Shown here piece after piece: positions 8,320 to 28,200 of a DNA stretch of 40,781 bases; the first letter of the stretch is position 1, and every line of letters starts with the position of its first letter. Origin of the DNA: Candidatus Pyrohabitans jungbluthii (GTDB lineage Archaea; Hydrothermarchaeota; Hydrothermarchaeia; Hydrothermarchaeales; BMS3B). The position numbers were made by a program, and so were the translations under genes. The DNA lies in assembly GCA_002010065.2 (NCBI GenBank), contig MTMD02000012.1, forward strand, positions 1-40,781, read 5' to 3'. The notes beneath the pieces are model-generated. The model had not been told where the DNA came from. It made no database searches and worked only from the letters and a program-made list of their open reading frames with translations.

Positions 8320-9690
8320 ATGAGCGGGCATAAATTGGGCATTATGAAATCCTTGAAGGCGCTCTCTCCTATCAAAATCACAGCCATATACATGCTGGTG
8401 GGGGGACTGTGGATACTGTTATCAGACAGACTGCTGGTCGCTTTTGTCAGGGATCCAGAGGTACTCACGCATATGCAGACTCTTAAGGGCTGGATCTACG
8501 TTGCTGTTACAGCAGTGCTTCTATATCTGCTAATCAGCTACAATACGATGGTTATACGGCACTCGGAGCAGGCAATGCGGGAGAGTGAAGAAAGATACCG
8601 TCAGACTGTGGAAAATTCGCCAAACCCGATTTTCTCTGTTGACAGGGAGGGTGTTATACAGTCGTGGAATAAGGCATGTGAAAATATCTTTCAATACAGC
8701 AGAAAGGAGGTAATTGGTGCGAAGTATCACATGCTCTTGAACCCGGAGGAGCGCCGCACCATCGAGGGTATGTTGAACCAGGTATTTGAGGAGAAACGTT
8801 CATTCAGCAACGTAGAGATTTCATACAGGTGCAGGGACGGAACAGAACGTTTCATGGTTTCCCGATTGTACCCTCTGCTGGATTATGAGGGGTGGGTTAA
8901 GGCATGTGTTTTTGCCAATACAGACGTTACAGAACGCAAACGTGCTGAGGAGGAATTGAAGAGGGCCTATGAAAAACTTCAGCGTGCCCACGAGGAACTT
9001 AAAACACTGGATGAGATGAAGAGCAACATAATCGCCAACGTAAGCCACGAGCTGCGCACCCCCATAACTATTGCAAAGGGTGCCATAGAACTGGTAATGG
9101 ATGAGAAGGATCAGAAAAAGAGGAAGGAGCTTTTGAAAATTGCCCTTAATGCGCTTTTGCGCCAGAACTTTATAGTAGAAGACCTGCTACAGGCAGCGAG
9201 GCTTGAGAGGGGTGAGATGAAGCTCGAAAAAGTGGATATGGCTAATCTAATAAACCGAGTGACTGAGGAGTTCAGACCCATGCTGATGAAGAATAACATA
9301 CAGATGGAGAAGAACGTTGAAGAGGGTCTGTTTGCAACCGCGGACCCAAACCAAATAGAGCACGTGCTAAGAAACCTGATAACCAATGCCATAAAATTCA
9401 ACAAACCTGGGGGAAGTGTCATCATCGAGGCACAGAAAAGGGGGGATATGGTAGAGGTGTGTGTGAGCGACACTGGAATAGGGATACCAGAAGATCAGCA
9501 GGAGAAGATATTTGAGCGCTTCTATCAGGTGGACTCCTCGCCATCAAGGCGGTACGGAGGCACAGGAATGGGACTGGCGATTGTGAAAGAAATAGTAGAA
9601 GCTCATGGGGGAAAAGTAACTGTAGAGAGCAGGCCTGGGGAAGGTAGCAGGTTCTGTTTCACGGTGCCAGCTGCAAGATGGGAGGAGTGA
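8320..9690 (+). CDS. membrane-bound PAS-domain sensor histidine kinase
   Basis: The 456-residue protein has two membrane helices (about 20-42 and 57-75) joined by a short loop and a PAS domain (about 90-205, with [20 protein letters not shown] and [15 protein letters not shown]). A coiled linker follows, then the HisKA motif [13 protein letters not shown] with phosphorylated H243. The ATPase domain has N box [11 protein letters not shown]1 [11 protein letters not shown] box IFERFYQ and G2 [10 protein letters not shown]. It should sense an input through PAS and phosphorylate a response regulator. A truncated receiver domain begins at its stop codon (9687). A TATA-like AT stretch lies at about 8266-8278. 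The ATG at 8344 is an alternative start. Confidence 0.9.
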
Positions 9691-9779
9691 TACTGACGGA
9701 GGTGCTTCTTATTGACGACGAGCCTGAGATAAAAAGCATCCTTCGCCCTTCACTCCCCCTTTGCAAGGTACTCCACTAG
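9687..9779 (+). pseudogene. truncated response regulator (first ~30 residues of a receiver domain)
   Basis: A GTG frame overlaps the kinase stop by four bases and reads [20 protein letters not shown], the first strand, acidic pair and first helix of a receiver domain. It then meets unrelated sequence and stops at 9777-9779. The phosphorylated Asp and the rest of the domain are absent. The cut coincides with the end of the convergent Sfm1-like gene (stop at 9750). The kinase has therefore lost its adjacent partner in this genome. Confidence 0.7.
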
Positions 9780-10313
9780 GCCGGGAGTGAGCATCAGCTT
9801 CCCCTCATACACCACATAGCCGTAGGGGAGGAGTACGCGCTCATTCTCACTGAGGGAAATCTCAACCTCATGGGTAACCTCTATATCCTCAAGCCTCTCG
9901 CCGAGGTAGATTAACCTCGCCACCAGGGCTGCGGTGTCTATGCTGAGCTGCACCTTGCCAAGATGGCGCGCCCTATCGCTTAGCTCTCGTGTTATGTGCT
10001 CTGCTGTCCTCCCGCGGGGCTTCTCGTACCCCAGGATACCGCCCACCACCACCGCTCTGGCTTTTCTAAAATCCTCCTGCGTGAGGGGCTTCTCAGCACG
10101 CGGATCGAGGATTATCACCTCTTCCTCGCGGAAAAGTTCCCTGAAGCTCTGCGTGTAAACCTCGCCCAGCGTGCGGAGCTTCTCTCCCATGCCAGGAGGC
10201 ACGCTGGTAAAGGTTGCGCCTCCCCAGTAGTGCGATGCGGCGCTGTACTCTAGGTAAAGCCACTCTGAAAGCTCTGGCTCTAGGTTTTCAATCACCAGTC
10301 GAACGCGGCGCAT
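9750..10313 (-). CDS. Sfm1-like SPOUT-type SAM-dependent methyltransferase (DUF431)
   Basis: The 187-residue protein begins RRVRLVIENLEPELSEWLYL followed by EYSAASHYWG, the N-terminal signature of the Sfm1/DUF431 family. It has a knot-like C-terminal half with VVVGGILGYEKPRGRTAEHI and LPYGYVVYEGKLMLTPGLVE. Yeast Sfm1 methylates an arginine of ribosomal protein uS3; archaeal members are annotated as RNA or protein methyltransferases. The ATG at 10313 has GGTGG upstream and matches the family start. It follows the Trm14-like gene on the same strand by 34 bases, so the two probably share a transcript devoted to translation-apparatus methylation. Confidence 0.75.
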   Translation of the reverse strand: MRRVRLVIENLEPELSEWLYLEYSAASHYWGGATFTSVPPGMGEKLRTLGEVYTQSFRELFREEEVIILDPRAEKPLTQEDFRKARAVVVGGILGYEKPRGRTAEHITRELSDRARHLGKVQLSIDTAALVARLIYLGERLEDIEVTHEVEISLSENERVLLPYGYVVYEGKLMLTPGLVEYLAKGE

Positions 10314-27057: not shown

Positions 27058-27498
27058 TTGAAGGAGTATGTAAATGCGGATTGGGAGATAAGTTTTGATG
27101 CGTCACTGCTTATGAACCCAGAGATCGTCACCATTGCTCCAGAAATCAGAGTGAGCGAAGTTGCAAAGCTCATGATGGAGAGGAATATAAGCAGCGTTGC
27201 GGTTGCTGAGGGGGGCAAGATTGTGGGCATAATAACTGATCGCGACTTCACGCGCTGTGCTGCGATGGAAAAGCAGGCTACCACTGCTGCCGAACTCATG
27301 TCATCTCCGGTTATCACAGTAGATTACAGAGAAAATGTCCTGGACATCGCGAGAAAGATGGGAGACCACAACATAAGGCACATATTTGTGGAGAGAGACG
27401 GTGAGATTGTGGGTATAATCTCCCTGAGGGATATACTGAAAATTATGCCTGAGGCAATCTACTGCTACATCCCACACGTTGAGAAGAAGAATAAATAA
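27058..27498 (+). CDS. CBS-domain pair protein
   Basis: The 146-residue protein is two CBS domains: EIRVSEVAKLMMERNISSVA with KIVGIITDRDFTRC, then SSPVITVDYRENVLDIARKM with EIVGIISLRDILKI. CBS pairs sense adenine nucleotides or SAM and regulate partner proteins. As a stand-alone unit its target is unknown. The start is TTG, supported by AGGAGG seven bases upstream. It ends just before the convergent cytochrome gene. Confidence 0.88.
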   Translation: MKEYVNADWEISFDASLLMNPEIVTIAPEIRVSEVAKLMMERNISSVAVAEGGKIVGIITDRDFTRCAAMEKQATTAAELMSSPVITVDYRENVLDIARKMGDHNIRHIFVERDGEIVGIISLRDILKIMPEAIYCYIPHVEKKNK

Positions 27499-27520
27499 GA
27501 AAAATAGGGGGAGAACTCCC

Positions 27521-28129
27521 TTAAAGGGAGGTTATCTCCTCGTACCTCTTTTCAAGAATCGGCTTGTGAATCTCGTTGGGCTTGCCGTAGTGGCAGCGTT
27601 CGCACTTTGCCTTGTGTATCTTTATGTAGTTGCCATCGAAGTGGCAGAGCTGGCACACCAGCACATCTCCGGGACGTTTCTCAGGTACGCGGAAGTCACC
27701 CTCCTTTGTCATGTGGCAGGTCTGGCACATAGTTACGCCGAGGTCTTCGATCTTCTTTTCGTGGATCTTGTGGATCTTCTCGCCGTGGCAGGTGGTGCAG
27801 ATTCTGGGCTCAACACCCTTCGCCTCGTCCACCTTCATGAGCTTGGCAATCTGATGGAAGGTCGAAACATCACCGTGGCAGTCGGCACAGTTTATCTCAG
27901 TCACAACCTTCGTGGGTGCTGGCGCCTCGCCCACCGGCGGCTTTTCCTCCTTTGCAGATGCAAGCTCAGCCTTTAGCTTATTAAGCTCAGCCTCAAGGCT
28001 CGCGATCTGCTTATCCTTTTTCTGGATCTGCTGCGTGTAGGTGGTGGATACGTTCCCCACGTAGATCAGTGTCCCTACCAGAGCAATGGCTAAAACCGCA
28101 ATAATAATTCCCGTTACCTTGCTCGCCAT
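27521..28129 (-). CDS. membrane-anchored pentahaem cytochrome c
   Basis: The 202-residue protein has an N-terminal membrane anchor (residues 5-24), a coiled coil (about 31-60), a Pro-rich hinge (63-73) and then five haem-binding CxxCH motifs: C81ADCH, C111TTCH, C135QTCH, C159QLCH and C176ERCH. Extra histidines (for example H92, H120, H123, H172, H188) could be the second axial ligands. The haem domain should face outside the membrane and pass electrons. It resembles NrfH/NapC-like or small multihaem proteins in size, but the coiled-coil stalk is distinctive. It has its own strong TATA box and GGAGG site. Its electron partner is not visible here. Confidence 0.9.
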   Translation of the reverse strand: MASKVTGIIIAVLAIALVGTLIYVGNVSTTYTQQIQKKDKQIASLEAELNKLKAELASAKEEKPPVGEAPAPTKVVTEINCADCHGDVSTFHQIAKLMKVDEAKGVEPRICTTCHGEKIHKIHEKKIEDLGVTMCQTCHMTKEGDFRVPEKRPGDVLVCQLCHFDGNYIKIHKAKCERCHYGKPNEIHKPILEKRYEEITSL

Positions 28130-28181
28130 GTGTACCTACCTCCTCTTTTTATGAAAATCAGCTTAAAGTACATTAAAAAAA

Positions 28182-28194
28182 CTTATATAATTTT
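28182..28194 (-). promoter_or_regulatory. TATA box for the pentahaem cytochrome
   Basis: The minus strand reads AAAAATTATATAAG, a near-consensus TATA box about 55 bases before the ATG at 28129, with GAGGAGGT close to the start. It lies immediately after the ArsA-like gene, so the cytochrome can be transcribed independently. Confidence 0.55.
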
Positions 28195-28200
28195 TGGTTG

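Follow-up and report, generated by a model that had tools for sequence, protein, structure and literature searches.

A predicted helical-stalked, membrane-tethered pentahaem cytochrome of Hydrothermarchaeota and its tethered relatives in other archaea

A pentahaem gene with its own promoter

The window examined here, meaning the whole stretch of DNA analysed, comprises 40,781 nucleotides from the genome of Candidatus Pyrohabitans jungbluthii (15 contigs totalling 1,993,079 bases). The organism belongs to the Hydrothermarchaeota; it is neither ANME nor a member of the Archaeoglobales. A gene on the reverse strand encodes a 202-residue protein with five CxxCH haem motifs, and the following features were recognized at the locus.

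28183–28198 (-), BRE/TATA-like promoter element ACCAAAAATTATATAA, identical in five genomes of the genus
28138–28145 (-), ribosome-binding site GAGGAGGT
27521–28129 (-), pentahaem cytochrome gene, 202 residues, ATG start, under purifying selection
28055–28117 (-), N-terminal hydrophobic anchor, residues 5–25, transmembrane anchor or uncleaved signal (top 19-residue Kyte–Doolittle window, 2.56 at residues 7–25)
27944–28051 (-), predicted charged helical stalk, residues 27–62, heptad core I35, K38, I42, L45, L49, L52, L56, A59
27893–27943 (-), Pro/Ala-rich linker, residues 63–79, the least conserved part of the protein
27566–27892 (-), haem core, residues 80–188, five CxxCH and five other His (92, 120, 123, 172, 188)
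27875–27889 (-), haem motif 1, CADCH, residues 81–85
27785–27799 (-), haem motif 2, CTTCH, residues 111–115
27713–27727 (-), haem motif 3, CQTCH, residues 135–139
27641–27655 (-), haem motif 4, CQLCH, residues 159–163
27590–27604 (-), haem motif 5, CERCH, residues 176–180

The open reading frame (ORF) is not a chance one, since six whole-length orthologs align with it at 96, 93, 85, 79, 73, and 71% identity. The closest named records are from Candidatus Pyrohabitans sp. JdFR-17 (96%) and a Candidatus Hydrothermarchaeota MAG (92%), followed by two other MAGs of archaea (84% and 70%). Within the genus pN/pS was 0.09 in the anchor, 0.15 in the stalk, 0.44 in the linker, and 0.10 in the haem part; the corresponding values between the genus of the window and the next genus were 0.17, 0.51, 0.72, and 0.16. 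By this measure constraint on the stalk is weaker than on the haem head. An antisense ORF at 27479–27976 (+) was taken as a shadow of the real gene, and an Rfam search across the window returned three tRNAs only, none near the pentahaem gene.

A first, sequence-only reading of this DNA had described five CxxCH motifs behind a single anchor, a coil of about 30 residues, and a Pro-rich hinge. The motifs in the ORF, its hydrophobicity, and a heptad test agree with that predicted layout. A class III (pilin-like) signal peptide was rejected by eye because no charged residue directly precedes the putative cleavage Gly. An AlphaFold2 model built with five orthologs (alignment A2) was poor, with a mean pLDDT of 50.4 and most of the haem part below 50.

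Both the ribosome-binding site and the BRE/TATA-like element fall within the 71-bp gap upstream of the gene. Five genomes of the genus have the 16-base element 61–64 bases upstream of the ATG. A one-base variant is found in G004 and G005, at a distance of 59 bases; the neighbouring genes there are quite different and include an SMC-like gene (by eye). Two other genomes, G020 and G001, have different TATA-like sequences. The evidence for a promoter is this conservation and not the score, as the score of 11 in the window occurs in 1.8% of its 110-base stretches on either strand, and the score of 10 in G004 and G005 in 8.7%. Because the element is kept while the neighbours change, the pentahaem gene has its own promoter, bearing out the private promoter proposed by the sequence-only reading. 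A T-rich run that follows the TATA element (window 28162–28182) is kept in all seven close sequences, with one T changed in G009, and TGTAC occurs after the TATA element in five of the seven (by eye). These sequences might terminate transcription of the ArsA gene or act as an operator.

Haem core and predicted ligation

Alignment A3 brings together 11 haem cores, from Hydrothermarchaeia and from three Archaeoglobaceae. Each core has five CxxCH motifs, and in each the non-motif His follow motifs 1–5 in the same order of one, two, none, one, and one; the L017 core has one extra, sixth non-motif His. Of the five distal His, four occupy columns that do not vary from Pyrohabitans to Geoglobus, and the first and fourth stand at different offsets in different phyla. 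Within Hydrothermarchaeia (alignment A1, 22 rows), His 123, 172, and 188 are present throughout, His 92 in each of the 21 rows extending that far, and His 120 in 20 rows, the other two having Met. The proximal His of the fourth motif is Lys (CxxCK) in 4 of the 22 rows. Five proximal and five distal His would fit five bis-His haems in the window protein, and the Lys at the fourth haem together with the replacement of His 120 in some rows indicates that ligation is not uniform across the family.

Several variants of the core were also observed. Four paralogs carry CxxCK at haem 4 (L019, L021, L031, and L033, from G016, G013, G018, and G017, respectively). Six members from family f142 (L134, L136, L139, L143, L150, and L153) have Cx5CH to Cx12CH where the second CxxCH is expected, with the rest of the core kept. 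The L016 frame (G021:C70) opens with the apparent tail of another pentahaem module that is truncated at the contig edge, and a single protein may thus carry the module in tandem.

Pfam listed 24 families at E ≤ 1, and only one scored above its cut-off. This was cytochrome c7 (PF14522; 37.3 bits against 24.8), whose best stretch covers residues 77–139 only. We treat it as a generic label because a giant cytochrome with 69 CxxCH in the same genome matches it too, and the window protein differs from cytochrome c7 in its extra five-haem extent, anchor, and stalk. A single-sequence search of solved structures gave weak matches only (best E 0.14 and 0.02), and a profile search returned MtrF (3pmq, ~9e-7) as well as 3ov0, 3ouq, 28pb, MtrC, NrfH, and HAO. 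Most of these multihaem structures had no single stretch that passed alone, and they were read as shared CxxCH make-up and rejected as homology.

The genome is rich in such motifs, with 209 + 112 matches to a CxxCH-type codon pattern against 33 + 37 for a reversed control. Cytochrome maturation genes are present, as shown by three matches to PF01578 (CcmC/CcmF-type) and two to CcmE, and the genome also encodes cytochrome b. The giant cytochrome is a 3,294-residue ORF outside the window (L052:2717–12598, in G000:C2) with 69 CxxCH and three Cx4CH; its cluster also encodes an S26 signal peptidase and proteins with 4, 7, and 5 haems. A stretch of about 1 kb from L052:5717 is repeated at 100% DNA identity 2,811 bases on, which reflects either recent duplication within the gene or an error of assembly; BLAST of the giant protein against itself gave its full-length match only. 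Three octahaem proteins of the same genome (L053:6139–7635, L054:8195–9775, and L055:7874–9355) have a common CGPT...RRRK tail that we take to resemble a C-terminal sorting signal, and no sorting-signal model was among their matches. Their matches to hydrazine dehydrogenase are partial (75–87 bits) and far below the cut-off of 900.

A predicted helical stalk in Hydrothermarchaeota

The best 28-residue heptad window of the protein starts at residue 33 with the core I-K-I-L-L-L-L-A (p = 0.004, 500 shuffles), and p was 0.002–0.004 in all seven close sequences, window protein included (500 shuffles each), in a home-made contrast with shuffled sequences that is not a published coiled-coil predictor and needs a Pro-free 28-residue window. 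In the low-confidence AlphaFold2 model, residues 2–61 are predicted as one continuous helix. Positions a and d of the stalk changed only somewhat less than its other positions, with pN of 0.048 versus 0.087 within the genus and 0.280 versus 0.352 to the next, which lends slight support to a tightly packed coil.

Across Hydrothermarchaeia, 12 of the 19 N-termini tested gave a heptad signal at p < 0.05. The seven failures comprise G001 (p 0.054), one copy in G017 (C158a, p 0.38), and five copies that have no Pro-free window. In G020 a lipobox-like SVIAAC replaces the transmembrane segment, yet the heptad helix is kept, with the largest heptad contrast. Ile at a and Leu at d in a heptad favour a parallel dimer. 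Oligomerisation of the stalk is thus plausible from its residue pattern, which suggests a parallel dimer.

Relatives and their tethers

In a single-sequence search of its own genome all 12 candidates were scored and only the window gene was kept, despite many cytochromes. The same kind of search matched 16 of the 23 genomes of the phylum at E ≤ 1e-5, one of them (G003) with an N-terminal piece at a contig end. The A1 profile consists of Hydrothermarchaeia rows only and is hence a non-circular test of homology outside the phylum. At E ≤ 1e-8 it matched at least 18 of 394 genomes, of which at least 15 belong to the 23 of the phylum and at least three lie outside it; these counts, like those with the A3 profile below, come from searches that scored some of the first-look candidates of many genomes (7 of 17 with A1 in the genome of the window).

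The outside matches, in G110, G200, and G217, had E-values of 1.2e-17 to 7.8e-17, and haem cores in and outside the phylum have G, P, I, and distal-His columns in common. One of these genomes is that of Geoglobus ahangari, an obligate Fe(III) reducer; G110 and G200 are presumably Ferroglobus placidus and Geoglobus acetivorans. Each of the three carries two five-haem lipoprotein-like genes in tandem. With the core profile A3, matches were found in 29 of the 59 genomes in the class of G217 and in at least 57 of 392 genomes sampled evenly from the larger phylum to which this class belongs, the E-values of the latter search being inflated because A3 already contained three Archaeoglobaceae rows. 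Outside that class its matches fall in at least five families (f142, f152, f165, f170, and f171). McrA was detected in 8 of 18 genomes tested (f142 2/3, f170 3/3, f152 2/2, f171 1/1), and was not found in the one f165 genome, seven f16 genomes, or the genome of the window. The McrA-bearing relatives look like ANME and alkane oxidisers. The homologous proteins, in these archaea and in Geoglobus-type Archaeoglobi, have ~200 residues. The homologues that the sequence-only reading had proposed to look for in ANME and Archaeoglobales were found with the A1 and A3 profiles, the ANME-like archaea being judged as such by McrA.

One branch (support 100/99) of a tree of 100 rows and 133 columns sets the 21 rows of Hydrothermarchaeia apart from the remaining 79; the tree omits the partial G001 row and cores under 100 residues, leaves many forks open, and carries a long-branch warning. 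The 14 rows labelled as coil cluster in it but need four label changes, so a single origin of the stalk is only a possibility, and they include G016, which has no Pro-free window, and both G010 copies. A Bacteroidales match (L005, 31% identity over residues 74–147), one of five loci found, was set aside as driven by CxxCH. Among viral contigs 39 stretches fit a pattern and none was confirmed.

We surveyed the tethers of 82 distinct ORFs outside the phylum, from 60 loci (L083–L085 and L095–L155) and with close relatives included. These ORFs have five CxxCH in 59 cases, four in 22, and three in one. An N-terminal hydrophobic stretch is present in 81, followed by a Cys in loose lipobox range in 70 and by a stricter pattern in 42. 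At least 20 residues lie between the hydrophobic stretch and the first haem in 78; of the remaining four, one is cut by a contig end and three are short. Tether length has a median of 48 residues (5–95% range 34–59). The Pro + Thr fraction is 0.16 in the window protein, compared with a median of 0.44 and a minimum of 0.03 in the 78 tethered relatives. A Pro/Thr-rich tether is thus a common, not a defining, family trait, and one that the window protein does not have.

Outside the phylum none of the 82 relatives gave a heptad signal at p < 0.05, 80 of them having no Pro-free 28-residue window to test. The sequence-only reading had staked its architecture on homologues keeping the stalk. As a coil the stalk was found in none of the 82, and as a tether of at least 20 residues it holds in 78. 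Judged from these sequences, the coiled coil is not a defining part of the family. Tethering, as gauged by hydrophobicity only, appears general, and anchoring looks selected. The helical stalk was seen only in Hydrothermarchaeota among the sequences compared.

Genomic context

In the genus of the window, the neighbours are genes for an ArsA-type ATPase, a CBS protein, a ferredoxin, BtpA, and an ABC transporter. All five genomes of the genus have the ArsA-type gene upstream in the same orientation, and four of them have the CBS-protein gene downstream. These neighbours do not make up a respiratory cluster, and gene position therefore does not point to an electron donor or acceptor.

Elsewhere in the phylum, one copy in G017 (C158) belongs to a cluster that includes genes for a Rieske protein, cytochrome b, subunit IV, and monohaem cytochromes. 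Another copy on that contig adjoins a NapC/NrfH-like five-haem gene. Copies in G017 (C52) and G018 (C89) lie among multihaem and S26 signal peptidase genes. In G016, G017, and G018 the CxxCK paralog comes after genes for an A-type ATP synthase. Such surroundings of the relatives suggest a part in respiratory electron transfer, although they vary among lineages. A radical SAM/methyltransferase gene adjoins the CxxCK paralog in two of these three genomes. Directly downstream of three family copies is a protein of ~340 residues with no Pfam match (L036:7417–8412 and 9026–10054; L040:6963–7979). It was rejected as a partner, being found (beside copies in G010 and G017) in only 2 of the 23 genomes of the phylum and absent from that of the window.

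Comparison with known multihaem proteins

A widely distributed group of small multihaem cytochromes (MHCs) was described as found only in ANME, Argoarchaeum, Syntrophoarchaeum, and Archaeoglobales capable of extracellular electron transfer, with paralogs among the highest transcripts in ANME and four haem motifs in each of two highly transcribed ANME-1 members (Chadwick et al. 2022, PMC9012536). The main text of that paper does not mention Hydrothermarchaeota. The Archaeoglobi and McrA-bearing branch of our family is probably this group, because the distribution fits and the f142 ORFs have four canonical CxxCH in 21 of 21 cases; the lineages matched agree with the published distribution, and four of the five families outside the class of G217 have McrA in at least one genome tested. 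The window protein differs in having a helical stalk where relatives of the small MHC branch have a Pro/Thr-rich tether.

The tandem pentahaem pair of Geoglobus is another of the closest known counterparts. Its first copy has the same five-haem, five-distal-His order as the window protein, and the first copies have an N-terminal anchor and a tether of 57–59 residues. Unlike the window protein, the pair has a lipobox-like Cys, a tether rich in Pro, Thr, and Lys, and two copies in a row. The G. ahangari pair is probably GAH_01235/GAH_01236, each listed as a ‘hypothetical protein’ with five haems and with masses of 21.5 and 22.3 kDa in Table 6 of PMC4600277; the computed masses are 22.3 and 22.5 kDa. 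PgcA of Geobacter sulfurreducens, a predicted multihaem surface lipoprotein with proline-rich repeats that acts in Fe(III) oxide respiration (PMC5732950), can be likened to the window protein by its published description only, and is bacterial and triheme whereas the window protein is archaeal and pentahaem. In the literature covered, which leaves aside most subscription journals, we found no description of a coiled-coil-stalked pentahaem cytochrome in Hydrothermarchaeota.

A proposed electron relay and its alternatives

We consider it probable that the pentahaem protein is a membrane-tethered, bis-His relay from quinol-oxidising complexes to outer multihaem cytochromes. The single N-terminal anchor would fix the protein in the cytoplasmic membrane, and a helical stalk of ~36 residues (~5 nm if fully helical) and the flexible linker would set its reach. 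Together they could place an all bis-histidine pentahaem head in the space under the S-layer. There the head may accept electrons from quinol-oxidising membrane complexes and may hand them on to multihaem cytochromes that lie further out. Given Ile at a and Leu at d, a parallel dimer would be the likeliest assembly. A bolder version holds that one pentahaem head sits on interchangeable spacers across archaea and that Hydrothermarchaeia swapped a floppy Pro/Thr tether for a rigid parallel coiled-coil dimer, giving a ten-haem, membrane-rooted stub with a fixed reach towards outer cytochromes such as the 69-haem protein. We offer this as speculation that is rather unlikely to hold.

The relay would depend on the N-terminus staying in the membrane. 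Were it a cleaved Sec signal, the mature protein would be a free shuttle of the pseudoperiplasm and the helix would serve only dimerisation or docking. Three relatives (L120, L121, and L122) have a signal-like N-terminus with fewer than 10 residues before the first haem, as such a shuttle might, but the lipobox-range Cys of the relatives (70 of 82, or 42 by the stricter pattern) and the exchange of the transmembrane segment for SVIAAC in G020 with the heptad helix kept both speak for retention, and we judge a free shuttle improbable. A single N-terminal anchor and a small multihaem head are also the make-up of CymA and NrfH, so the protein itself might be a quinol dehydrogenase of this type. 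A weak profile match to NrfH (2j7a_C, E 0.0079) and the CymA-like role raised for small anchored ANME MHCs in PMC9012536 are in keeping with this. However, NapC/NirT (PF03264) is not among the 24 Pfam families at E ≤ 1, a 36-residue stalk would keep the haems away from membrane quinol, and a separate NapC/NrfH-like gene adjoins a family member in G017 (by Pfam match) and G018 (by clustering). With no NapC domain match and a long stalk, the window protein is very unlikely to be such a dehydrogenase.

An enzymatic role, for example as a nitrite, hydroxylamine, or sulfur reductase, seems the least probable reading of all. HAO (1fgj) and NrfA (2j7a) match parts of the profile (E 0.0051 and 0.028), and the CxxCK of the four paralogs recalls the NrfA active site, which has this motif. 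In the window protein, by contrast, the sequence offers a distal His for each of the five haems, which would leave no open site, and the head has just ~110 residues. We give scarcely more credence to heads that polymerise into a cytochrome nanowire, as other small multihaem proteins do (OmcS and OmcZ, PMC9012536). The anchor and stalk would need to be removed, and no PDB match is named a filament subunit, although names settle little, 28pb_A (E 4.8e-5) being called only ‘Cytochrome c’.

Implications for archaeal electron transfer

How electrons travel from membrane to surface in archaea, which mostly have no outer membrane, is the question that the pentahaem family addresses. Hydrothermarchaeota have many c-type cytochromes, and Carr et al. 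(2019, PMC6775978) suggest iron reduction as one role. A stalked cytochrome fits the suggestion made there that these archaea may reduce extracellular ferric oxides via c-type cytochromes, like Ferroglobus and Geoglobus. Small multihaem proteins of this kind were already known in methane-oxidising and iron-reducing archaea; what is new here is the predicted helical stalk in Hydrothermarchaeota. The haem head recurs in archaea with McrA, in a genus of iron reducers, and in a phylum not yet cultured, and it is nearly always tethered, by spacers that differ. Such variety of spacer on one head suggests that reach and anchoring are selected traits, and a rigid and a floppy spacer on the same head would make a concrete pair of constructs with which to test them.
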